From the NCBI RefSeq assembly GCF_900110915.1, contig NZ_FOFG01000005.1, positions 62,001-126,000 of the forward strand: a stretch of 64,000 bases of DNA. Reading direction: 5' to 3'. Both the position numbers and the translations under genes were made by a program. Below are positions 13,471-26,220 of the stretch, one piece after another. The stretch's first letter is position 1. The number at the start of each line of letters is the position of its first letter. This DNA comes from Faunimonas pinastri (GTDB lineage: Bacteria > Pseudomonadota > Alphaproteobacteria > Rhizobiales > Afifellaceae). The notes under the pieces were generated by a model. The model worked only from the letters and a program-made list of their open reading frames with translations, searched no databases and was not told where the DNA came from.

Positions 13471-16200
13471 TCACGATCGCGTGTGGTCGTCCTCTTGCCG
13501 GCGCAGCCGCTTCAGTTCGTAGAGCGCCTCCAGCGCCTGGCGCGGCGTGAGATCGTCGGGCTGGATCCCGTCCAGCGATTTCAACGTCGGGCTTTCCGCA
13601 ACGGGCTCCTCGGCCGACGGTTTCGGCCGGGAGGCGAACAGCGGCAGATCGTCGATCATCGCCTGCTGCGGCCGGGTGCGGTCGCCCTTTTCCAGCATCT
13701 GCAGCACGGTCTTCGCCCGGCCGATCACCGCCGCCGGCAGGCCGGCGAGCTTGGCGACCTGGATGCCGTAGGAACGGTCGGCCGCACCTGCCATGATCTC
13801 GTGCAGGAAGACGACGTCGCCCTTCCACTCCTTCACCTTCACCGTGGTGTTGTGGAGCCGCTTGAGGCGCGCGGAAAGCGCCGTCAACTCGTGGTAATGC
13901 GTGGCGAACAGGGCCCGGCAGCGGTTGACGTCGTGCAGGTTCTCCACCGTCGCCCAGGCGATGGAAAGGCCGTCGAAGGTCGCCGTCCCGCGCCCGATCT
14001 CGTCGAGGATCACCAGGGCGCGCTCGCCCGCCTGGTTCAGGATCGCCGCCGTCTCCACCATTTCCACCATGAAGGTGGAGCGTCCGCGCGCCAGATCGTC
14101 CGCCGCGCCGACGCGGGAGAACACGCTGTCGACGACACCGATGCGGGCGCTCGCCGCCGGCACGAAGGAACCGGCCTGGGCAAGGATCGCGATCAGCGCG
14201 TTCTGGCGCAGAAACGTCGACTTACCCGCCATGTTGGGGCCGGTGAGCAGCCAGATCAGCCCGCCCTTCTCGCCGGCATCTCCGCCGAGATCGGTGTCGT
14301 TGGCGACGAAGCTCTGCCCCTCGCGCCGCAGCCCCTGCTCCACCACCGGGTGGCGGCCGCCCTTGATGTCGAAGGCGAGGGAATCGTCGATTTCCGGCCG
14401 GACATAGCTTTCCGCTTCCGCCAGTTCCGCCAGGGCGCAGGTGACGTCGAGCTCCGCCAGGGCCTTGGCGACGGCTCGCAGCACGCCGGAGGCTTTTTCC
14501 ACTTCCGCCGCCAGATGATCGAAGACGCCGAGCTCGATGCGCAGCGACGTCTCGCCCGCGCCGGCGATCCTGCGTTCAAGCTCGCCCAGCTCCGCCGTCG
14601 TGAAGCGCATCGCGTTCGCCAGCGTCTGGCGATGGATGAAGGCACCACCCTCGGCGGTGAGCGGGGCCGCCTGGCCGGCATTCACCTCGACGAAATAGCC
14701 GAGTACGTTGTTGTGCCGGATCTTCAGGGCGCGGACGCCCGTCTCCTCCGCGTAGCGCGCCTGCAAGGCGGCGATGACGCGGCGGCTTTCGTCCCGCAGC
14801 GCCCGCGCCTCGTCCAGCTCCGCCCTGTAGCCCGCGCGCACGAAGCCGCCATCGCGCTTCAGCAGCGGCAGTTCATCGTCGAGAGCGAAGCCGAGCTCAT
14901 GAGCGAGATCGGCGGGCACGCGGGCGAGTTCGCGACAGGTTTCGGCGATCGCCGGCGGCAGCGGCAGCGCCTGCCGCCCCATGCGGTCTGAAATGGCGGA
15001 GGCGCTCTTCAGCGCCACGCGGATCGTTTCGAGATCGCGCGGGCCGCCGCGCTCCAGCGCCAGCCGCGAGAGCGAGCGCACCATGTCCGGCGCCTGCGCC
15101 AGCCTCGCGCGGAGATCGCGGCGAAGATCGGCCGCTTCCAGCATGTAGGCGACGGCCGCCAGCCGGTGCTCGATCGCCCCCGGATCGCAGAGCGGGTTGG
15201 CGAGACGTTCGCCCAGAAGCCGGGAGCCCGCCCCGGTCAGCGTTCGGTCGATGGCGGCGAAGAGGCTGCCGGCGCGCGAGCCGGAGAGCGTGCGGAAGAG
15301 TTCGAGGTTCGCCCGCGTCGCCGCATCGATGCGCATGGTCTCGCGGTCGGCCACGCGGCGGAGCGGCTCCAGCGGCGGGCGGCGGGAAATCTGCGTCTTG
15401 TCGACATAGGCGATCAGCGCGGCGGCGGCACAGAACTCCGCCCGGGTAAACGCGCCGAAGCCATCCATCGTCTGCACGCCGAAAGTGGTGGCGAGACGCG
15501 TCTCGGCCGTCGCCGCGTCGAAGAAGGAGCCGGGCAGCGGCGTCAGCGCGGCGTGGACGTCGGCGATCGCCGCGCGGATTTCCGGATCCTGCGCCAGCCG
15601 GTCGGGCACCAGCACCTCGCGCGGCTCGATCCGGGCCAGCAGCGCGGAAAGGCCGGACGGCGCGCCTTCGCCGACGCGGAACTCGCCGGTGGAGATGTCG
15701 ACCCAGGAAACGGCGAAGCGCACGCCCTCGTCCTCGGAGCCCGCCACGCGCACGAGCGCGGCCAGGAAATTGTTGCGGGCGGAATCCAGCAGCGTTTCTT
15801 CCGTCAGCGTGCCCGGCGTCACCAGCCGCGTGACGGCACGCCGCACCACCGACTTGGAGCCGCGCTTGCGCGCTTCCGCCGGGTCCTCCGTCTGCTCGCA
15901 GATGGCGATGCGGAAGCCCTTGGCGATCAGCTTGTGCAGGTAATCGTCGGAAGCATGGATCGGCACGCCGCACATGGCGATGTCCTCGCCCAGATGCTTG
16001 CCGCGCTTGGTCAGCGTGATGCCCAGCGCCTTGGAGGCGATCACCGCGTCGTCGAAGAAAAGCTCGTAGAAATCGCCCATGCGATAGAACAGCAGGCAAT
16101 CCGGGTTCACCGCCCGGATCTCCATGTATTGCTCCATCATCGGCGTGATGCGCTGCGCGGCCGGATCCTCGCCGCTCTCTGTCGTCTGCACGTGCTGCAT
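13471..16200 (-). CDS. mutS: DNA mismatch repair protein MutS
   Basis: MutS recognises base mismatches and small loops and starts repair. The 909-residue protein has the mismatch-binding Phe-x-Glu motif in GDFYELFF (about residue 45), the connector and lever domains, Walker [11 protein letters not shown] at 653-662, Walker [11 protein letters not shown] near 730, and the FATHYHEL signature near 765. A C-terminal helical tail for dimer contact completes it. The upstream region to 16342 is shared with the divergent sppA gene. The [15 protein letters not shown] gives a normal family length. Confidence 0.98.
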
Positions 16201-16342
16201 GGCGCGACGTTAGCAGATCGGCACGAGTTTCGGCGAGCGACAGGCGCTTCGCCCACATCAAACCGCATTCGTGAATCAAATCAGCCGCTTGCGACCGGGC
16301 GCCCCGGGCTGCTACTGCGGAAGTCCTAGAGGAGACCGATTA

Positions 16343-17302
16343 ATGGATGCGGACGAAATTCTGGAGCGCAGGCGCCTGAGGCGGCGGGCAAGCTTCTGGC
16401 GGATCGCCGCTTTCGTGATCCTTGTGGCCGCCATCCTCATCGCGGCGGGCTTCAACGCGCCCTCGCTGAAGCGCGCGCAGCCGCAGGTCGCCCGCATCGA
16501 CGTGGAAGGCTTCATCGGCGCGCGGCCCGATGCGGTCGAGCAGATCCGCAAGGCGGCCGCGTCCTCCTCCGTCAAGGCGATCCTGATCCGCATCAATTCT
16601 CCGGGCGGCGCGGCTTCCGGCGGCGAGGCGCTCTACAAGGCGATCCGCGACGCCGATGCCAAGAAGCCGACCGTGGCCGTGATCAACGGGCTCGGCGCCT
16701 CCGCCGCCTACATGACGGCGATCGCCACCGACCGCATCTTCGCCGGCGACACCACGATCACCGGCTCCATCGGCGTGATCCTGGAATACGGCCATATCGA
16801 AGGCCTGCTCGACAAGCTCGGCGTCAAGTACGAGGAGATCAAGAGCGCGCCCCTGAAGGGCCAGCCCTCGCTCTTCCTGCCGACCGACCCGGCCGCGACC
16901 GCCATGCTGCAGTCGATGATCAACGACAGCTTCAACTGGTTCGTCGGCCTCGTCGCGGATCGCCGCGGCATGTCGGAGCCGGATGCGCGCAAACTTTCCG
17001 ACGGCAGCGTCTTCACCGGGCGGCAGGCCGTCACCAACCACCTGATCGACCAGGTGGGCGACGAGGACGATGCCCGCGCCTGGCTTGAAAAGGAAAAGGG
17101 CGTTTCCGCCTCGCTTCCCCTCGTGGAGTGGAAGAAGAAGCAGGGCGGCCTGCCCTTCCTCGGCAATCATGCCGTCGCCGGCCTCCTCCGCCTCCTCGGA
17201 GTGTCCGACGACCTCGCCCCCTTCGCCCAGGCCTTCCTGCCCAGGCAGCTCTCGGTTGACGGGCTCCTGGCCGTTTGGCAGCCTGCGCAATCCAGTCGCT
17301 AG
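16343..17302 (+). CDS. sppA: Signal peptide peptidase SppA-like S49 protease
   Basis: This is a short (319-residue) SppA with one N-terminal membrane anchor (about residues 20-42: FWRIAAFVILVAAILIAA). SppA degrades cleaved signal peptides in the inner membrane, active site outside. The nucleophile Ser lies in GLGASAAYMTA and the general-base Lys in SAPLKGQ, the Ser-Lys dyad of S49 peptidases. INSPGGAASGG and GSIGV motifs are present. GAGGAGA precedes the chosen ATG. An upstream ATG at 16271 has no such site. Nine bases separate it from ihfB, so they form an operon. Confidence 0.93.
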   Translation: MDADEILERRRLRRRASFWRIAAFVILVAAILIAAGFNAPSLKRAQPQVARIDVEGFIGARPDAVEQIRKAAASSSVKAILIRINSPGGAASGGEALYKAIRDADAKKPTVAVINGLGASAAYMTAIATDRIFAGDTTITGSIGVILEYGHIEGLLDKLGVKYEEIKSAPLKGQPSLFLPTDPAATAMLQSMINDSFNWFVGLVADRRGMSEPDARKLSDGSVFTGRQAVTNHLIDQVGDEDDARAWLEKEKGVSASLPLVEWKKKQGGLPFLGNHAVAGLLRLLGVSDDLAPFAQAFLPRQLSVDGLLAVWQPAQSSR

Positions 17303-17311
17303 GGGGCATCG

Positions 17312-17599
17312 GTGATCAAGTCGGAGCTGATCGAGCGGATCGCCCAGCAGAATCCGCATCTCTACCAGCGGGATGTCGAGCACATCGTGAACGCCATCCT
17401 CGAGGAGATCGTGTCGGCGCTGTCGCGCGGCGACCGGGTGGAGCTCAGGGGCTTCGGCGCGTTCTCGGTGAAGAACCGGCCGGCGCGCACGGGTCGGAAC
17501 CCGCGCACCGGCGAGCAGGTTTCCGTGTCGGAAAAGTACATCCCCTTCTTCAAGACGGGCAAGGAGATGCGCGAACGTCTGAACGAAGGCGAGGAGTGA
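17312..17599 (+). CDS. ihfB: Integration host factor subunit beta
   Basis: IHF-beta pairs with IHF-alpha to bend DNA sharply at specific sites. The 95-residue protein has the HU/IHF fold and the DNA-arm signature [20 protein letters not shown], with [19 protein letters not shown] at the C-terminus. RNPRTGE and the N-terminal [15 protein letters not shown] distinguish IHF-beta from HU. The start is GTG, after AGGGGGC. sppA-ihfB adjacency is conserved in Hyphomicrobiales. Confidence 0.95.
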
Positions 17600-17603
17600 C
17601 GTT

Positions 17604-17945
17604 TTGAGCTGGTTTGGCACGCTGATCAAATGGGTGATCCTGCTTCCGATCCTGGTGGTGATCGCCATCCTGGCCCTGGCCAACGATCAGGCCGTCACGA
17701 TCCACCTGAACCCGTTCAACCCGGCCGATCCGGTCCTCCAGATCCAGCTCGCGCTCTATCAGGTCGCCTTCGCGACCTTCGTGATCGGCGCGCTGATCGG
17801 CGCACTGGTGACCTGGGGCGGCCAGCGCCGCCATCGCCGGGCGGCGCGAGACAACGGTCGCGAGGCGCGCCGCTGGCGCAAGCGCGTGGAAGACAGCGAG
17901 CCGGAGGAGAAAAGCCCGACCCTTTTGCTGACAACCAAGCGCTGA
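17604..17945 (+). CDS. LapA-domain (DUF1049) membrane protein
   Basis: The 113-residue protein has two hydrophobic segments (about residues 8-27 and 50-70), with NDQAVTIHLNPF between them, the LapA/DUF1049 pattern, then a basic, charged cytoplasmic tail (RRHRRAARDNGREARRW). In gamma-proteobacteria LapA works with LapB in lipopolysaccharide control. No LapB is visible here, so that role is only a family analogy. The start is TTG at 17604, five bases past ihfB. The family N-terminus W-x-x-x-L-I-K fits this start. Confidence 0.8.
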   Translation: MSWFGTLIKWVILLPILVVIAILALANDQAVTIHLNPFNPADPVLQIQLALYQVAFATFVIGALIGALVTWGGQRRHRRAARDNGREARRWRKRVEDSEPEEKSPTLLLTTKR

Positions 17946-17993
17946 GCCCGGCCTCTTCTTCCTCGGCCCCTTCTCCCTAGGCCCTCCCGGGTT

Positions 17994-18605
17994 TCAGCCC
18001 TCCCGGTGCCAGGGCAGCACGGTGAGCCGCGGCCAGATCGCCCGCGCCCTCTCCGCCTTGGCGAGGTAACTTCCGGGGGCAAGGTTCGCCTCGTTCGGCC
18101 GGATCACCATGTCGAAGAGATCGGCCAGCCCGAAGGGCGCGGCGATGTCGAGCCGATCGTCCGGCCCCAGCCGCACCGCCACGGCATGGACGATGGCGGC
18201 ATAGCGGGAAAGCGCTTCGTCGGCCGAGGCGAGCGCCGCATAGGGCGCGCCGAAGCGCTCCTCGTACCAGAGATGCACCCGCGCCTGGTTTCGCACCTCG
18301 GCCACCCCCTCGAACCCGACCTTCTTCAGGTCGTCGCCGACGCGGCGGATCGCCCGGTCCTCGGCCTCCCACGAGGGATCGGCGTCGAAATACACGATGT
18401 CATAGTCGCGGATCCCCGTCCCGCGGGGGACGTCCGAGAGGACGCTCCACACCGTCTGGTAGAGGCACCCCGCCGCCAGCCGCCATTGCGGCAGGTCGAC
18501 GGAGCGGAGCGTGCGAAGCAGCAGCATCAGCGTCGGATCGGCGCGGACGATCGCTTCCAGCCGCGCCCGGCGCTCGTCTTCCGCCACGTCGACGTTTCCC
18601 CTCAT
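17994..18605 (-). CDS. Nucleotidyltransferase-fold protein (NTP_transf_6 family)
   Basis: The 203-residue protein matches the PF06042 family of uncharacterised nucleotidyltransferases. The putative metal-binding acidic motif is IRDYDIVYFDAD (about residue 65), preceded by the conserved W near LPQWRLAAGCLYQTVW and followed by VRNQARVHLWYEERFG. The substrate is unknown. GGGAGGCGGCC precedes the ATG. It is a single gene, convergent with the lapA-like gene and divergent from the rimP operon. Confidence 0.82.
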   Translation of the reverse strand: MRGNVDVAEDERRARLEAIVRADPTLMLLLRTLRSVDLPQWRLAAGCLYQTVWSVLSDVPRGTGIRDYDIVYFDADPSWEAEDRAIRRVGDDLKKVGFEGVAEVRNQARVHLWYEERFGAPYAALASADEALSRYAAIVHAVAVRLGPDDRLDIAAPFGLADLFDMVIRPNEANLAPGSYLAKAERARAIWPRLTVLPWHREG

Positions 18606-18639
18606 GGCCGCCTCCCTTTCCCGCCCGGATTCCCGGGCC

Positions 18640-18668
18640 TTGAACTTCCGCGACTACCGGAGTATATG
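18640..18668 (+). promoter_or_regulatory. Sigma-70-type promoter of the rimP-nusA-infB operon
   Basis: TTGAAC (18640-18645) and TATATG (18663-18668) are separated by exactly 17 bases, in the gap between two divergent genes. Transcription would start near 18675 and enter the hairpin-rich leader at 18679-18726. This is a prediction from spacing and sequence only. Confidence 0.6.
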
Positions 18669-18678
18669 AACTTCAACA

Positions 18679-18726
18679 TCTCGTAAGCCTTTTCGAGAGT
18701 GGGTCCCGCCGGTCCCGCTCTTTTTT
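18679..18726 (+). promoter_or_regulatory. Attenuator-like leader before rimP
   Basis: Just past the predicted transcription start, TCTCG (18679-18683) can pair with CGAGA (18694-18698). Then GAGTGGG (18697-18703) can pair with CCCGCTC (18714-18720, one G-U pair), directly followed by six Ts (18721-18726). The second hairpin is a textbook Rho-independent terminator and shares two bases with the first, so the two compete slightly. It stands 48 bases before the rimP start, so read-through would control the whole operon, including nusA, whose product acts on such hairpins. Confidence 0.55.
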
Positions 18727-18773
18727 ATTGCCCGCCGGTCAGCCCACGGGGATGGCGGCGGTTGCGGAGCCTG

Positions 18774-19358
18774 ATGAACACTCGTCGTCTGATACGTGAA
18801 ACGGGGACCGAAGCGCGCGTCGCCCATATTGTCGAGCCGGTCGTGGCAGATCTCGGCTATGAGCTCGTGCGCATCAAGATTTCCGGCCTCAACGGCATGA
18901 CGCTGCAGATCATGGCGGAGCGGCCGGACGGCACCATGACGGTGGAAGGTTGCGAGGATATCAGCCGCGCTGTTTCCCCGGCTCTCGATGTCGACGATCC
19001 GATCGATCGCGAATATCATCTCGAGGTCTCCTCCCCCGGTATCGACCGGCCGCTGACCCGCGCCAAGGATTTCGACCTCTGGTCGGGCCATGAGGTGCGA
19101 CTCGAGACGGCGGTTCTCGTGAACGGGCGCAAGAAATTCCGCGGCACCCTGCTCGGTGTCAAGGACGACACCGTGGGTGTCCGGCTCGACGGCGTGGAGG
19201 GCAACGAGACCTTCGTGCCGCTCGACGATATCGCGGAAGCCAAGCTGATGCTGACCGATGCCTTGATCGACGATGCCGGCGCACGCGCCGCCCGGGCCAA
19301 GACGCCCGACGACATTCCGGCCGCCGATCAGGCGGACGAAACCGACAACGCTAGCTGA
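18774..19358 (+). CDS. rimP: Ribosome maturation factor RimP
   Basis: RimP helps assemble the 30S subunit. The 194-residue protein has the N-terminal domain with [20 protein letters not shown] and the central phrase [14 protein letters not shown], which is the family's best-conserved motif, followed by the Sm-like C-terminal domain ([17 protein letters not shown]). The start chosen is the ATG of [12 protein letters not shown] longer ATG start at 18699 falls inside the terminator hairpin and is unlikely. The acidic/Ala tail is normal for alphaproteobacteria. First gene of the rimP-nusA-ylxR-infB-rbfA-truB-rpsO-pnp series. Confidence 0.95.
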
Positions 19359-19378
19359 CCAGCAGACGGAGCACATCG

Positions 19379-20977
19379 ATGGCTGTCAGTGCCAACAGGC
19401 TCGAACTTCTCCAGATCGCCGACGCTGTCGCGCGGGAGAAGACGATCGACCGCAAGATCGTGATCGCCGCGATGGAAGACGCGATCCAGAAGGCGGCCCG
19501 GTCGCGCTATGGCGCGGACACCGAGATCCGCGCGGAGATCGACGGTCGCACCGGCGAGATCCGACTGCAGCGCCTCCTCGAGGTGGTCGACGTGCCGGAG
19601 AACTTCTCCACCGAGATCGCGCTTGACGACGCGCGGTTGCGCAATCCGTCCGCGCAGGTCGGCGACCTCATTTCCGAGCCGCTTCCGCCGCTCGATTTCG
19701 GCCGCATCGCCGCGCAGTCGGCCAAGCAGGTCATCATGCAGAAGGTTCGCGACGCCGAGCGCGACCGTCAGTACGAGGACTTCAAGGACCGCATCGGCGA
19801 GATCGTCAACGGCACGGTGAAGCGCGTCGAATACGGCAACGTAATCGTCGATCTCGGCCGTGGCGAGGCGATGATCCGCCGCGACGAGTTGATCCCGCGC
19901 GAGACCTTCAAGTACGGCGATCGTATCCGCGCCTATGTCTACGACGTGCGCCGCGAGCAGCGCGGTCCGCAGATCTTCCTGTCGCGTACCCATCCGCAGT
20001 TCATGGCGAAGCTCTTCACCATGGAAGTGCCGGAGATCTACGACGGCATCATCGAGATCAAGTCGGTCGCCCGCGATCCGGGCTCGCGCGCCAAGATCGC
20101 GGTGCTCTCCAACGATTCCTCGATCGACCCCGTCGGCGCCTGCGTCGGCATGCGCGGCAGCCGCGTCCAGGCGGTCGTCGGCGAGTTGCAGGGCGAGCGC
20201 ATCGACATCATTCCGTGGCAGCAGGACGCGGCGACCTTTATCGTCAACGCGCTGCAACCGGCGGAAGTCTCGAAGGTTGTTCTCGACGAAGACGCCGGAC
20301 GTATTGAAGTCGTGGTCGCCGACGACCAACTATCTCTTGCGATCGGTCGTCGCGGACAGAACGTGCGTCTGGCGTCCCAGCTCACCGGCTGGGATATCGA
20401 CATCATGACCGAGGACGAGGAATCGGAGCGCCGGCAGAAGGAATTCACCGAGCGGACCGAACTCTTCACCGAAGCGCTCGATGTGGATGAGATGGTTGGC
20501 CAGCTCCTGGCCTCGGAAGGATTCGCCAAGCTTGAGGAAGTGGCCTTCGTCGATCTCGACGACCTTGCCTCGATCGAGGGCTTCGACGAGGATACCGCCG
20601 AGGAACTGCAGACCCGTGCGCGGGAATATCTCGAGCAGATCGAGAACGAGCAGGACGAGGAGCGCCGCAAGCTTGGCGTCGAGGACGATCTCAAGAGCGT
20701 TCCCGGCGTGACGACCGCGATGCTGGTGGCGTTCGGCCAGAACGACGTCAAGACGGTCGAGGACCTCGCCTATTGCGCCGCCGACGACCTCGTGGGCTGG
20801 ACGGAGCGCAAGGACGGCGAGACCAAACGTTTCGAAGGAGCCCTTCAGGGCTTCGAGATCTCCCGCCAGGAAGCGGAAGAGATGATCATGGCGGCGCGCG
20901 TCCAGGCGGGGATCATCTCCGCCGAGGATGAAACCGTCGCCGAAGAGCAGGAAGTCGAGGAGGCTGCCGCCGTTTGA
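19379..20977 (+). CDS. nusA: Transcription termination/antitermination factor NusA
   Basis: NusA binds RNA polymerase and controls pausing, hairpin termination and rRNA antitermination. The 532-residue protein has the N-terminal polymerase-binding domain (residues 1-125, with IAAMEDAIQKAARSRYG), an S1 domain (about 135-200, GTVKRVEYGNVIVDLG), two KH domains with GMRGSRVQAVVGEL and SLAIGRRGQNVRLA, and two C-terminal helix-hairpin-helix repeats in an acidic region. It ends in a TTGA overlap with the ylxR-like gene. Confidence 0.98.
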   Translation: MAVSANRLELLQIADAVAREKTIDRKIVIAAMEDAIQKAARSRYGADTEIRAEIDGRTGEIRLQRLLEVVDVPENFSTEIALDDARLRNPSAQVGDLISEPLPPLDFGRIAAQSAKQVIMQKVRDAERDRQYEDFKDRIGEIVNGTVKRVEYGNVIVDLGRGEAMIRRDELIPRETFKYGDRIRAYVYDVRREQRGPQIFLSRTHPQFMAKLFTMEVPEIYDGIIEIKSVARDPGSRAKIAVLSNDSSIDPVGACVGMRGSRVQAVVGELQGERIDIIPWQQDAATFIVNALQPAEVSKVVLDEDAGRIEVVVADDQLSLAIGRRGQNVRLASQLTGWDIDIMTEDEESERRQKEFTERTELFTEALDVDEMVGQLLASEGFAKLEEVAFVDLDDLASIEGFDEDTAEELQTRAREYLEQIENEQDEERRKLGVEDDLKSVPGVTTAMLVAFGQNDVKTVEDLAYCAADDLVGWTERKDGETKRFEGALQGFEISRQEAEEMIMAARVQAGIISAEDETVAEEQEVEEAAAV

Positions 20978-21624
20978 GCGAAGCGGACGCGATAGAGACT
21001 GTCGAAGCGGACGATTTGGGCCGGGAACGCGAGCGCACGTGCATCGTCACGCGCCAGGTGTTGCCGGAGACGGATCTCATCCGCTTCGTGCCCGCTCCCG
21101 ACGGCACGGTCGTCGCCGATCTCCGGCGTCGTCTTCCGGGTCGTGGGGTGTGGGTCAGCCTCGATCGTGAGCGTGTGGCGGAAGCCGTGCGCAAGAACCT
21201 CTTCGCCCGCAGCCTCAAGGCGGCGGTGAAGGCACCGGCGGAGCTGCCCGACCAGGTCGAGGCCCGGCTCCGCGAACTGGCGCTTGGCCGCTTCGGCCTT
21301 GCCCGCAAGGCAGGCGCCGTGGTGGCGGGCTTCTCCAAGGTGGAAGCCGCCATCGCGCGCGACCAGCTGGCCGGCCTCGTGACGGCCAGCGATGGCGCCG
21401 ACGACGGCAGACGAAAGATCGAGGCGGCACTTCGACGCCGCTTTGCAAGTAGCGAGACGCCTGTCCCGAGGCCCCAGCTCATCCGCATCTTCGCGACGGA
21501 AGAATTGGGTTTGGCATTGGGCCGGCCAAATGTGATACATGCTGCCGTACTTCACAGCCCGGCAGGCAGAAGTTTCGTGGATGCGAGCATTCGCCTCCGG
21601 CGCTACATCGGCGCTGCGGACTAG
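20974..21624 (+). CDS. RNA-binding protein, YlxR (DUF448) domain with L7Ae-like C-terminus
   Basis: The 216-residue protein starts at TTG inside the nusA stop (TTGA overlap). Residues about 15-90 form the YlxR domain ([38 protein letters not shown]), known for binding RNA and nucleic-acid-associated roles. The rest, with [24 protein letters not shown], matches the ribosomal L7Ae/eL30-like fold, a fusion common in alphaproteobacteria. Placement between nusA and infB is the usual one. The exact target RNA is not known from sequence. Confidence 0.88.
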
Positions 21625-21689
21625 CTTGCCCGCGAAACCCCGACCGACACAGCGGACCTTCCGCCAGACGACGCCAGGAACGACGACGA

Positions 21690-24600
21690 ATGAATGATAC
21701 GACCAGCAAAGGCGACAAGACGATCCGGGTCGAGGGACGCAAGACGCTGTCCCTGAAGGGCGGCTCGGATGTAGTCCGCCAGAGCTTTTCCGGCGGGCGT
21801 TCCAAGTCGGTAGTGGTGGAGAAGAAGCGCCGCTTCGTTTCCGCCCCGAACGAGCGCGACGTCGAGTCGACAGCCCAGACCGACACACGGCAACCGGCGC
21901 CTGCCGCCCAGGAAACTGCGCCGCAGGCCGCCGCAGGCAAGCCGCCGGTGATCCAGGTCCAGGCTCCCCAGCCCGCCAGTCCCGAACCGACCGTCGCGGC
22001 CGAGCCTGCCGCTCCCGCAACGGCCCCGGCCGCGGAAAGTGCTGCCCCAGCCGCTGAGGCAGCAGCCTCCGCTCCGGCAGCAACCGAAGCTCCTTCGGCT
22101 CCGGCTCAGGCAACCCCCTCTCCTGCAGCCCCCTCTCCTGCAGCCCCCGCTCCGGCTTCCCGTACCGGCACGGTTCAGCCCACGGCCGCACAGCTGGCCA
22201 ATCGAGCCGGCGGCCAGCCCCGCCAGCTTGCACCGGCTCCCGCGCAGCGCACCAGCGCCGCGCCGGCCGGCCAGAACCGTCCGGCAGCAGCCGGTCGCGG
22301 TGCAGCAGGCGCCGGTGCCGGTGGCCGTCCGCAGGCACAGGGTCCGAACCAGGGCCAGCAGCAGCGCCGTCCCGAGCAGCGCAACCGCAGCGGCGTCGTG
22401 CTTCGCACGCTGACCGCCGATGAGCGCGACGCCCGTACGCTTGCTCTCCAGGAGGCTCGCGTTCGCGAGGCCCGTGAGCGCATCCAGGCGGAAGAGGACG
22501 CAAAGCGTCGCGCCGAGGAGGATGTCCGGCTCGCCAAGGAGCGTGCCGAGGCGGAAGCCCGTCGCGCCGAGGAAGACGCCCGTCGTGCCTCCGAGGATCA
22601 GGCCAAGAAGCGGGGCGAGGAAGAAGCGCGCCGCCGTCTTGGCAATGATGGCGGTTCCTCCGCCCGTCCGGGGGGCGCATCCTCGCGTCCTTCAGGTGGT
22701 GCATCCGCGCCCGGCGTTCGCCCGACCGCGGCGGGCCGTCCGGCCGGTGCCGCGCCTCGCGGCCCGGAAGCTCCCTCCTCGCTCAATCGTCCGAAGCGGA
22801 TCGAGATTCCGAAGCCCGCCCGCACGAAGGCCACTCCCGGTGGCGAAGGCCGTCGCCGCCTGACCGTCACCAACGCCCTTGAGACGACCGAGGGTGATCG
22901 CGAACGTTCGCTGGCATCTGTGCGCCGCAAGCGCGAAAAGCAGATGCGCCAGCAGCACGGCTTCAACCCGTCGAACGAGAAGATCGTTCGCGACGTGGTG
23001 ATCCCGGAAGCGATCTCCGTGCAGGACCTCGCCAACCGCATGGCCGAGCGTGCGGTGGACGTGATCCGTCTGCTCATGCGCTCCGGCAACATGGTCAAGA
23101 TCACCGACATCCTGGATGCCGACACGGCGCAGCTGATCGCGGAAGAGATGGGGCACAATGTGCGCCGCGTCGCCGCCTCGGACGTCGAGGAAGGCCTCTT
23201 CGGCGTCGCCGACGTGACCGACGACCTGCAGCAGCGTCCGCCGGTCGTGACCATCATGGGCCACGTCGACCACGGCAAGACCTCTCTGCTCGATGCCATC
23301 CGCCATGCCAACGTGGTGTCCGGCGAAGCCGGCGGCATCACGCAGCATATCGGTGCCTATCAGGTCGAGCAGAACGGCCAGAAGATCACCTTCATCGACA
23401 CCCCCGGCCACGAAGCCTTCACGGCGATGCGTGCCCGTGGTGCACAGGCGACAGACATCGTCATCCTGGTCGTCGCGGCCGACGACGGCGTGATGCCGCA
23501 GACGATCGAGGCGATCAACCACGCTCGCGCAGCCAACGTGCCGATCATCGTTGCGATCAACAAGATCGACAAGCCGAGCGCCGATGCGAACCATGTTCGC
23601 ACCGAGCTGCTTCGCTACGAGATCCAGGTTGAAAGCATGGGCGGCGACACGCTCGAAGTGGAAGTCTCTGCCACGCAGAAGACCAACCTCGACAAGCTGC
23701 TGGAAGCCATCCTGCTGCAGTCGGAAGTGCTCGATCTTCGGGCCAATCCGGAGCGCGACGCCGAAGGCATCGTGGTGGAAGCCCAGCTGGATCGCGGTCG
23801 CGGCCCGGTCGCCACGCTTCTAGTCCAGCGCGGCACGCTGCATGTCGGCGACATCGTCGTGGCCGGTGCCCAGTGGGGCCGCGTTCGTGCCCTGCTCAAC
23901 GATCGCGGCGAGCAGGTGAAGGAAGCCGGCCCGTCCATGCCGGTCGAAGTTCTCGGCTTCCAGGGGACGCCGGCAGCCGGCGATCGCCTGGGCGTCGTCG
24001 AGAACGAAGCCCGCGCCCGTGAAATCACGGAATATCGCGAAGGCGTTCGCCGCGAGAAGCAGGCGGCCAGCATGGCCGGCGCCCGTGGCTCGCTGGAGCA
24101 GATGATGAGCCGGTTGCAGACCGCCGGCCGCAAGCTGTTCCCGGTCGTCGTCAAGGGCGACGTGCAGGGCTCGGTCGAGGCGATCGTCGCCTCGCTCACC
24201 AAGCTCGGCACCGAGGAAGTCGGCGCGCAGATCCTGAACTCCGGCGTCGGTGGCATCACCGAGTCCGATGTCAGCCTTGCCGCCGCCTCCAAGGCTCCGA
24301 TCATCGCCTTCAACGTTCGTGCCTCCAAGCAGGCGCGCGATGCGGCGACCCGCGAGGGCGTCGAGATCCGCTACTACAGCATCATCTACGATCTCGTGGA
24401 TGACATTAAGTCGGCCATGTCCGGCCTGCTGCCGCCTGAGCGTCGCGAAACCTTCATCGGTTACGCCTCGATCCTGGAGATCTTCAACATCACGAAGGTC
24501 GGCAAGGTCGCGGGTTGCCGCGTCACCGAAGGCAAGGTGGAACGCGGTTCCGGTGTCCGCCTGATCCGCGACAACGTGGTCGTCCACGAGGGCAAGCTCT

Positions 24601-24743
24601 CCACGCTGAAGCGCTTCAAGGACGAGGTCCGCGAGGTCAACGGCGGTCAGGAATGCGGTATGGCCTTCGAACGCTACGAGGACATGCGCGTCGGCGACGT
24701 CATCGAGTGCTTCCGCGTCGAGATGATCACCCGCACGCTCTAA
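21690..24743 (+). CDS. infB: Translation initiation factor IF-2
   Basis: IF-2 is the GTPase that places initiator tRNA on the 30S subunit and joins the subunits. The 1017-residue protein has a long low-complexity N-terminus rich in Ala/Pro, then a charged Arg/Glu helix (about residues 245-320), an IF2N domain near 440, and the G domain with GHVDHGKTS at 524-532, DTPGHEAF and NKID. Domains II, III and C2 follow, ending in MITRTL. The Ala/Pro region contains a short tandem duplication in the [14 protein letters not shown] stretch. The ATG at 21690 opens the family's [20 protein letters not shown] start. Confidence 0.98.
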
Positions 24744-24761
24744 GCGGGTCCGCAAGCAGAG

Positions 24762-24790
24762 AGAACCCCGGCCCGTCGGGCCGGGGTTCT
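24762..24790 (+). terminator. Perfect 13-bp hairpin between infB and rbfA
   Basis: AGAACCCCGGCCC (24762-24774), a three-base loop GTC, and its exact complement (24778-24790) form a very stable stem 18 bases past the infB stop. There is no T run, so it may act as a partial terminator, a pause site, or an RNase barrier that sets the 3' end of the infB message. Confidence 0.6.
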
Positions 24791-24847
24791 GCCGTTCGCG
24801 TCACGCCATACGACATGACGCCGTCCGCCCCTCACAGATGATCCGAG

Positions 24848-25282
24848 ATGAGCCGTTCAAAACCATCCAAACCCGGTCAGGCCTCGCAGCGTCAGCTGCG
24901 TGTCGGCGAACTCGTACGTCACGCGCTGGCTGAAGTCCTCTCGCGCGGGGAATTCAGCGATCCGCATCTGCAGGGCCACCTGATCACCATCGCGGAAGTC
25001 CGCATGTCGGCCGATCTTCGCCACGCGACGGTACTGGTCGCTCCGCTCGTCGAGAGCCAGAGCGACGCCATTCTGGCCGCGCTGAACCACGGCGCCAGCT
25101 TTCTGCGCAACCGAATGGCTCCGGCCATCAGCCAGATGCGCTCGATCCCGGACCTTCGTTTCCGCCTCGATACACGCTTCGAGGACGACCGCCGGATCGA
25201 CGCGCTGCTTCGCTCGCCCGACGTCGTTCGCGATCTCGGGGACGAGGACCAGGGCGACGACGACGCAGAGGACAAGGCCTGA
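24848..25282 (+). CDS. rbfA: Ribosome-binding factor A
   Basis: RbfA binds immature 30S subunits and helps 16S rRNA 5'-end maturation. The 144-residue protein has the family opening SQRQLRVGELVRHALAEVL, followed by VRMSADLRHATVLVAPL and LRFRLDTRFEDDRRID, then an acidic tail (DLGDEDQGDDDAEDKA). Its stop overlaps the truB ATG by one base (TGATG). Confidence 0.96.
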   Translation: MSRSKPSKPGQASQRQLRVGELVRHALAEVLSRGEFSDPHLQGHLITIAEVRMSADLRHATVLVAPLVESQSDAILAALNHGASFLRNRMAPAISQMRSIPDLRFRLDTRFEDDRRIDALLRSPDVVRDLGDEDQGDDDAEDKA

Positions 25283-26220
25283 TGGGACGTCGCGGCAAGC
25301 AGCACGGCAACAAGGTCGATGGCTGGGTAGTGCTGGACAAGCCCCTCGGCATGACGTCCACCGAGGCCGTTGCCAGGGTCAAGCGCCTGTTCAACGCCCA
25401 GAAGGCCGGTCATGCCGGCACGCTCGATCCCCTCGCCTCCGGCTGTCTGCCGATCGCTCTGGGCGAGGCGACCAAGACCGTTTCCTATGTGATGGACGGC
25501 CGCAAGGTCTATCGTTTCGTCGTCCGCTGGGGCGAGGAGACGGCGACCGACGACACCGAAGGCCCGGTGATCGAGACCTCAGACGTGCGCCCCGCCCGCG
25601 CGGAGATCGAGGCGGTCATCCCCGAGTTCACCGGACATATCCTGCAGATCCCGCCCGCCTATTCCGCCATCAAGATCGCGGGCGAGCGCGCCTACGACCT
25701 CGCGCGCGAAGGCGAGACGGTGGAGCTTGAGGCACGCGAGATCGTGGTGCACCGACTGGATCTGGCGGAATGCCCGGACGAGAATACTGCCGTGTTTCTC
25801 GCCGAATGCGGCAAGGGGACCTACGTACGTGCCCTGGCGCGCGACATGGGTCGTCGGCTCGGCACGCGCGGCCATATCGTCGGCCTGCGCCGGCTGATGG
25901 TGGGTCCCTTCAGCGAGGATCTCATGATTCCGCTGGAAGAACTCAACGAAATGCGTCATAACCTCGACGCTGCTGACGGCCTCCTGGCCGCCAGTGCTTT
26001 ACGATCGGTCGAAACAGCGCTGGACGGCATCCCGGCCCTGCTGATGACTGACCGCGATGCGGCCCGCCTCAAACGAGGGCAGGCCGTCATCTTGAGAGGA
26101 CGGGACGCGCCCGTCATATCCGGTCCCGCTTACGCGATCTTCGACGGCCTTCCCGTCGCGCTCGGCGAGATCGACCAAGGCGCATTCAATCCCAAACGTG
26201 TGTTCAATCTCGCCGGCTGA
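25282..26220 (+). CDS. truB: tRNA pseudouridine(55) synthase TruB
   Basis: TruB makes pseudouridine 55 in the T loop of tRNAs. The 312-residue protein has WVVLDKPLGMTST at the N-terminus and the catalytic Asp in HAGTLDPLASGCLPIALGEA (about residues 39-58). CGKGTYVRALARDMGRRLGT (about 176-195) is another family hallmark. The C-terminal part carries a PUA-like region. Start ATG overlaps the rbfA stop, consistent with co-translation. Confidence 0.97.
   Translation: MGRRGKQHGNKVDGWVVLDKPLGMTSTEAVARVKRLFNAQKAGHAGTLDPLASGCLPIALGEATKTVSYVMDGRKVYRFVVRWGEETATDDTEGPVIETSDVRPARAEIEAVIPEFTGHILQIPPAYSAIKIAGERAYDLAREGETVELEAREIVVHRLDLAECPDENTAVFLAECGKGTYVRALARDMGRRLGTRGHIVGLRRLMVGPFSEDLMIPLEELNEMRHNLDAADGLLAASALRSVETALDGIPALLMTDRDAARLKRGQAVILRGRDAPVISGPAYAIFDGLPVALGEIDQGAFNPKRVFNLAG

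Follow-up and report, generated by a model that had tools for sequence, protein, structure and literature searches.

The window, a stretch of 64,000 nucleotides from Faunimonas pinastri (contig NZ_FOFG01000005.1, positions 62,001 to 126,000), carries six genes in a row on the forward strand: rimP, nusA, ylxR, infB, rbfA and truB (Table 1). A gene for a nucleotidyltransferase lies upstream and points the other way. Between this divergent neighbour and rimP we find a pair of promoter boxes, two overlapping hairpins and a run of T residues.

Table 1. Features of the rimP-nusA-infB region, in positions of the window.
Feature	Position	Strand	Basis
Divergent neighbour, nucleotidyltransferase	17994-18605	-	PF06042
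-35 box TTGAAC	18640-18645	+	seen in sequence; TTG-N18..22-TATA-like pair in 59 of 74 leaders
-10 box TATATG	18663-18668	+	17-nt spacer after -35; relatives often TATATC or TATATT
Hairpin 1, proposed antiterminator, UCUCG/CGAGA, 10-nt loop	18679-18698	+	folding; cross-family pairing
Hairpin 2, predicted intrinsic terminator and rimP-leader core, (GAG)AGUGGG...CCCGCUCU	18695-18722	+	folding, alignment, covariance model
U-tract T6	18721-18726	+	sequence
rimP	18774-19358	+	PF02576, PF17384
nusA (second gene)	19379-20977	+	PF08529, PF13184, PF00575
ylxR-domain protein (DUF448)	20974-21624	+	PF04296
infB	21690-24743	+	PF11987, PF00009
rbfA	24848-25282	+	PF02033
truB	25282-26220	+	PF01509

Hairpin 2 has the anatomy of an intrinsic terminator. 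Positions 18695-18703 pair with 18714-18722, and past a U.U mismatch an upper stem follows, in which 18705-18706 pair with 18711-18712. The segment 18675-18730 folds as one hairpin of -17.9 kcal/mol (z = -3.5), and none of 200 shuffles is as stable. An earlier note on this DNA had described a textbook terminator with six Ts, 48 bases before rimP. The terminator and its six Ts stand, but the ATG of rimP at 18774 lies 47 nt past the T-run. Judged from the surrounding 10 kb alone, neither the promoter nor the terminator is above chance; it is comparison between genomes that makes the case. Positions 16000-26000 contain 8 terminator-like sites, where shuffles lead us to expect 5.4 (sd 2.6), and a promoter scanner run over the same range does not list the promoter of the window, which scores below its cut-off. 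The sequence CCCGCCGGTC, which spans the upper stem and loop of the terminator (18705-18714), recurs at 18731-18740, just past the U-tract. This second copy could serve as an alternative partner for the 5' arm of the terminator.

An attenuator at this place is known from the literature. Naville and Gautheret (2010) named the rimP-leader, a GGGc...gCCC stem for which NusA was proposed as the regulator, and the main text of their paper calls it the most ubiquitous bacterial attenuator (PMC2965389). Like the rimP-leader of that text, the element in the window is a predicted terminator whose 5' arm is rich in G and whose 3' arm is rich in C, followed by Ts and placed directly upstream of the essential genes rimP-nusA-infB. 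In the published definition the terminator lies 4-130 nt before rimP in a rimP-nusA-infB operon, a range that includes the 47 nt of the window, and a T-stretch follows, as T6 does here. By position, and by stem apart from its inner flanking pair, the predicted element of the window is of the rimP-leader kind.

There are also differences. According to the same main text, the general form of the rimP-leader has no visible antiterminator; one is present only together with the upstream tandem terminator of some Gammaproteobacteria (PMC2965389). In the window, by contrast, a 5' hairpin overlaps the terminator, which at its inner flanking position has U.U where the published stem has c-g. The main text of PMC2965389 has no words beginning with Alphaproteobacteria or Rhizobi. 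In the open-licence literature searched, we found no paper on the rimP-leader in Rhizobiales or other Alphaproteobacteria. The Rfam family RF01770 (rimP) shares the gene context by name and is a model of 102 positions. With E-values up to 5 allowed, it finds nothing in 18000-19400, and its gathering score of 47 bits is not reached. Across genomes, RF01770 exceeds its cut-off in none of 21 genomes of the clade and in one of 14 control genomes. The other Rfam candidates in 18000-19400, sbrA (E = 1.5) and RsmW (E = 4.3), were rejected as chance-level.

To describe conservation we use several nested samples. From 85 oriented loci, the window included, 74 leaders were retained (73 pattern matches plus L022), among which near copies within genera remain. 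Duplicates (L001, L009, L014 and L029-L031) had been removed beforehand. The collecting pattern allowed one substitution anywhere and, at a wobble pair discussed below, accepted no bases but T or C on one side and G or A on the other. Ten fetched regions that it missed, plus L028, were then left out of the 74. In eight of these eleven the element is found (E up to 1.1e-4) by R1, a covariance model of the hairpin core built from 72 sequences; in L038 and L054 it is recognised by eye, and in L028 there is none. The 74 leaders and the ten missed regions together form a set of 84. Alignment A1 holds 72 of the 74, as L011 and L013 were dropped as near copies of L012.

The hairpin is widespread in Hyphomicrobiales. 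A check proposed in the earlier note, to look for the same leader in related genomes, turned out in its favour: with E no higher than 0.01, R1 hits 269 of 297 genomes and 113 of 118 genera of the order (28 genomes have no match), with the proviso that at this threshold the weakest of the 269 matches need not sit at rimP. The source genome has a single match. Position was read from the 68 genomes common to two lists, the best 150 of each, and 34 of these genomes are outside the training set of R1. In each of the 68 the best match shares contig and strand with the RimP domain and precedes it by 72-411 nt (median 116 nt). The largest distance among the 68, 411 nt, belongs to L091 (genome G022), as if there were an insertion between leader and gene. 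Loci with the same leader include Rhizobium, Mesorhizobium, Devosia, Bradyrhizobium and Methylobacterium. When the leader was used as a DNA query, its 40-nt hairpin proved 93-95% identical in five genomes of the same family; for the rimP part, G010 showed 77% identity and the other four no match.

Outside the order the hairpin is present, too. At E up to 0.001, R1 matches 48 of 241 genomes of the class Alphaproteobacteria, Hyphomicrobiales included. Thirty loci with matches in the class were fetched, and rimP is nearby in 12, four of which belong to Hyphomicrobiales. When we start from rimP instead, 20 of 29 alphaproteobacterial loci outside Hyphomicrobiales have the one-substitution pattern upstream (the place of L250 is doubtful), and several of the remaining nine have a related hairpin by eye.

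Could the hairpin simply be the 3' terminator of the upstream gene, or belong to a stand-alone small RNA that acts in trans, with rimP transcribed from elsewhere? In 22 of the 74 leaders trmB lies upstream in the same direction, at most 240 nt away, and rimP leader RNA is listed among the ProQ-associated RNAs of enterobacteria in the relevant part of PMC5391140. Yet the neighbours differ between relatives (trmB is co-directional in some leaders, and the genes are divergent in the window, L079 and L074), and the promoter just before the hairpin is conserved. In the window itself the hairpin cannot be the terminator of its neighbour, because the PF06042 gene is divergent; we rejected this role for the window. 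We consider the explanation very improbable for the element as a whole. Where trmB precedes the leader, the hairpin could have the extra role of ending trmB transcripts as well. A relative of the PF06042 gene occurs in the searched upstream stretch of only one of the 74 leaders, that of the window.

The promoter is supported by comparison. In 59 of the 74 orthologous leaders TTG-N18..22-TA[TC][AT] stands 5' of the hairpin, whereas 200 mononucleotide shuffles average 2.9 such leaders and never exceed 7. The well-spaced promoter of the earlier note, TTGAAC-17-TATATG, is confirmed in its boxes and spacing. From the spacing of the boxes, transcription is predicted to start at about 18675. To judge from the listing of leaders, -10 box and terminator seem to lie closer together or further apart according to how long hairpin 1 is, which would fit an RNA that begins just 5' of that hairpin. 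The sequence TGAACTTC occurs twice in the window, 26 nt apart: at 18641-18648, across the -35 box, and at 18667-18674, just 3' of the -10 box. Among the other same-family leaders listed, none shows an evident second copy.

A six-codon reading frame, MNFNIS-stop, occupies 18666-18686 with its ATG inside the -10 box, so that attenuation by a leader peptide might be considered. The frame is present in the window, but its ATG is upstream of the predicted start of transcription, and most relatives of the same family have TATATC or another -10 box without an ATG (L003 has TATATG). We rejected the peptide for these two reasons, and its chance of being the regulator is next to nil.

The promoter, the position before rimP in 68 of 68 genomes, the changing upstream neighbours and the published rimP-leader together lend strong support to one part of what the earlier note had claimed, an attenuator-like leader; its statement that the leader controls the whole operon is too strong. 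Some kind of leader attenuation at rimP-nusA-ylxR-infB-rbfA-truB is, on this comparative evidence, very probable.

We now turn to the 5' competitor. Once the RNA is cut at 18712, hairpin 1 is predicted to form with 5 bp, as 18679-18683 pair with 18694-18698. Hairpins 1 and 2 overlap at 18695-18698 and are mutually exclusive. In the genome of the window hairpin 1 is weak: its z score is +0.15 for the fragment cut at 18712 and -1.46 for a 42-nt segment, and its stability is -4.7 kcal/mol compared to -16.4 kcal/mol for the terminator. Its arms pair no better than foreign arms (percentiles 0.41 and 0.52 in an arm swap with a fixed split). The two competing hairpins of the earlier note therefore hold as geometry, through the common segment 18695-18698, with the correction that the first is by far the weaker one here.

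Support for hairpin 1 comes from across the families. When arms are swapped between families (one leader for each of 28 families, variable split), cognate arms pair at -8.40 kcal/mol and foreign arms at -6.24 kcal/mol (sd 0.54; 0 of 2000 permutations). The mean percentile of cognate arms is below 0.5 in 21 of the 28 families; in the other seven it is 0.5 or higher, and cognate arms are not favoured. With the variable split, 25 and 26 of the 74 leaders are at or below the 10% mark. With a fixed split the numbers are 28 and 23 of 74, and 11 of 28 families have a mean percentile of at most 0.2; this version is weaker because a fixed split cuts hairpins with small loops. The arm swap alone leaves GC content common to both arms uncontrolled, which dinucleotide shuffling does control. 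In the shuffling test the family-weighted folding energy of the 5' segment is -9.2 kcal/mol, against -6.5 kcal/mol in shuffles (sd 0.28), and none of 100 shuffled sets is as low. When the 3' arm is missing, the terminator-foot GAG finds a pairing partner further upstream in 59 of 74 leaders, compared to 51% in shuffles. Within one family the pairing is kept through a base change, AUC/GAU in L053 and GUC/GAC in L081. Hence the Hyphomicrobiales leaders, as far as folding and comparison of sequences can tell, have two mutually exclusive hairpins with cross-family support, seven of 28 families excepted, and the first hairpin is weak in the window.

The signal of hairpin 1 looks different elsewhere. 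In other alphaproteobacterial orders (29 loci minus four dropped) the upstream segment folds with a mean z of -1.33 (n = 25), close to the -1.42 of Hyphomicrobiales (n = 74), so the folding signal alone is not special to Hyphomicrobiales. The GAG at the terminator foot is paired in 15 of these 25 leaders versus 48% in shuffles, which is not clearly higher, and we do not extend the proposed switch to these orders. Nine rimP leaders from outside Hyphomicrobiales, picked by title, show no clear signal (mean z -0.85; GAG paired in 5 of 9, shuffles 45%). The same is true of 15 leaders directly before nusA, to which we return below (z -0.34; GAG paired in 7 of 15, shuffles 46%). For 28 motif matches at neither rimP nor nusA, z is -0.72 and the GAG is paired in 3 of 28, with 34% in shuffles.

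The terminator stem is conserved in a different way. Its 5' arm, (G)AGUGGG, is nearly invariant, and GGG/CCC is invariant or nearly so in the 72 aligned leaders. Covariation is weak (94.0% of cells paired, 93.8% in shuffles, 203 of 500 shuffles as high) because the stem hardly varies. The support is therefore conservation, not compensation. The U of GAGUGGG forms a U.G wobble in 71 of the 72 leaders and a C-G pair in one, counted among sequences for which the collecting pattern admitted T or C. The inner position that is c-g in the published stem is U.U in the window and a non-standard pair in 38 of 72 leaders. The 8 nt that follow the stem contain at least five Ts in 70 of the 84 leaders (69 of the 83 that were parsed and, by eye, L080) and at most four in 14. 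Five of the 84, from five families (L022, L024, L032, L038 and L054), keep the hairpin with at most two Ts.

Retention of the stem sequence after loss of the U-tract is unexpected of a purely intrinsic terminator and possible for a factor-dependent one. A wobble that is kept where C-G would be more stable, and a hairpin that is kept without a U-tract, point to a factor that reads the sequence. The simplest alternative has no such factor. In that case the element would be a constitutive partial terminator that lets through a fixed fraction of polymerases, and hairpin 1 would merely weaken it. The anatomy alone is compatible with this explanation, the terminator of the window is far more stable than hairpin 1, and Rfam finds no known riboswitch in 18000-19400. 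However, a fixed leak needs neither a 5' arm that hardly varies and retains its U.G wobble nor a hairpin that persists where the U-tract is nearly lost. We judge a constitutive terminator unlikely, with some weight left to it, and prefer an element that is read by a factor, for which we propose NusA.

A scan of the GTDB species genomes for GAGTGGG-N4..14-CCC[AG]CTCTTTTT returned at least 116 stretches, whose genes were assigned by tblastn with the RimP and NusA of the window. Among the matches listed, 72 precede rimP by at most 400 nt, 15 directly precede nusA by at most 200 nt, and 29 were assigned to neither gene; at least L134 and L228 end early, and a distant RimP or NusA may be missed. 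The loci with nusA first include Akkermansia, Prosthecobacter, Chthoniobacterales, Opitutales, Elusimicrobiota, Planctomycetota, FCPU426 and one member of the Oscillospiraceae. A motif shared before rimP or nusA across several phyla is again something that a fixed leak does not need. In the two of the 15 loci that were checked, L183 (Akkermansia) and L155, the next gene upstream is unrelated and points the other way. Thus the hairpin seems to follow nusA. The scan pattern fixes the motif, and the frequency of nusA leaders that lack it is outside its reach. Six loci of Variovorax and Pseudorhodoferax (L148, L164, L175, L185, L218 and L235) have a similar GAGTGGG...CCCACTC terminator that was assigned to neither rimP nor nusA. 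There it comes after a common stretch, GGAAAGACGTCAAGTA, which is maybe the end of a gene.

NusA acting on its own operon has precedents. In the literature surveyed, experimental reports of NusA control of this operon were found only for E. coli and B. subtilis. In B. subtilis NusA autoregulates through leader attenuation, as the section of PMC12288461 on this operon states with reference to Mondal et al. (2016). Like the leader described there, that of the window has a predicted intrinsic terminator in the 5' leader of a gene cluster that encodes NusA. NusA-stimulated termination is experimental for the B. subtilis leader and a prediction for that of the window. The B. subtilis rimP leader is 180 nt long (main text of PMC2965389), whereas in the window the terminator ends some 50 nt into the leader. 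In E. coli NusA represses its own operon according to the main text of PMC2965389, and the part of PMC6511841 on this operon also states that NusA controls it. The metY-rimP-nusA-infB leader of E. coli likewise has terminators upstream of rimP; it differs in having several promoters and a tRNA gene (PMC6511841, same part). In the intergenic stretch of the window an Rfam scan finds no tRNA-like feature and a simple scan no second promoter.

The sensor might also be a factor other than NusA. Candidates are RimP itself, NusG, Rho and a cold-shock protein able to open the hairpins. In E. coli the operon as a whole is transcribed more under cold stress according to the passages on it in PMC6511841, the references of which include a study of CspA-family antiterminators, and feedback by RimP is considered in the main text of PMC2965389. 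The hairpin lies directly before nusA in L183 and L155, where rimP does not adjoin, which argues against RimP. Sequence recognition by cold-shock proteins is loose and fits poorly with an invariant stem. For Rho, an E. coli rimP leader fusion is expressed at a lower, not a higher, level in a Rho mutant, as the passage on it in PMC7815308 reports. We regard a different sensor as quite unlikely, and continue with NusA.

Our preferred explanation is that the leader is a rimP-leader attenuator through which NusA limits its own operon, and that in Hyphomicrobiales the 5' hairpin gates read-through. We give it a probability of roughly 0.6. Termination, NusA as the sensor and hairpin 1 as the antiterminator are what we infer from the features above. 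The case for NusA autoregulation is made indirectly, by analogy with E. coli and B. subtilis and by matches of the same hairpin directly before nusA in Verrucomicrobiota and some other phyla.

In the proposed mechanism the RNA would begin near 18675, and a strong terminator hairpin with U6 would be completed within about 50 nt. A fraction of the polymerases would terminate and release a short RNA; the remainder would read into rimP-nusA-infB. NusA would promote pausing and termination at hairpin 2, such that plentiful NusA leads to less expression of the operon, a negative feedback. In Hyphomicrobiales the 5' hairpin would form first and occupy the base of the 5' arm of the terminator, through the common GAGAG segment. 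Branch migration would then open hairpin 1 before the terminator is complete, and read-through may be set or gated at this step.

Compared to the rimP-leader literature surveyed, three predicted features are new: the 5' competitor hairpin, the matches directly before nusA and the hairpin that is kept almost without a U-tract. Taken together they allow a broader and more tentative proposal, which we hold to be possible but doubtful as a whole. GAGUGGG...CCC[AG]CUC might be a bacteria-wide and sequence-specific signal by which NusA reads its own mRNA, one that follows nusA without rimP and outlasts the U-tract. In Hyphomicrobiales it may have become a minimal two-state switch, CUC-GAG-CUC within about 50 nt, with the 5' hairpin as a built-in antiterminator.

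Should the hairpin accompany nusA instead of rimP and keep its sequence where the U-tract is lost, the question of what reads it would narrow to NusA. If the proposal is true, the switch would take a very short form in the order to which Rhizobium, Methylobacterium and Bradyrhizobium belong.
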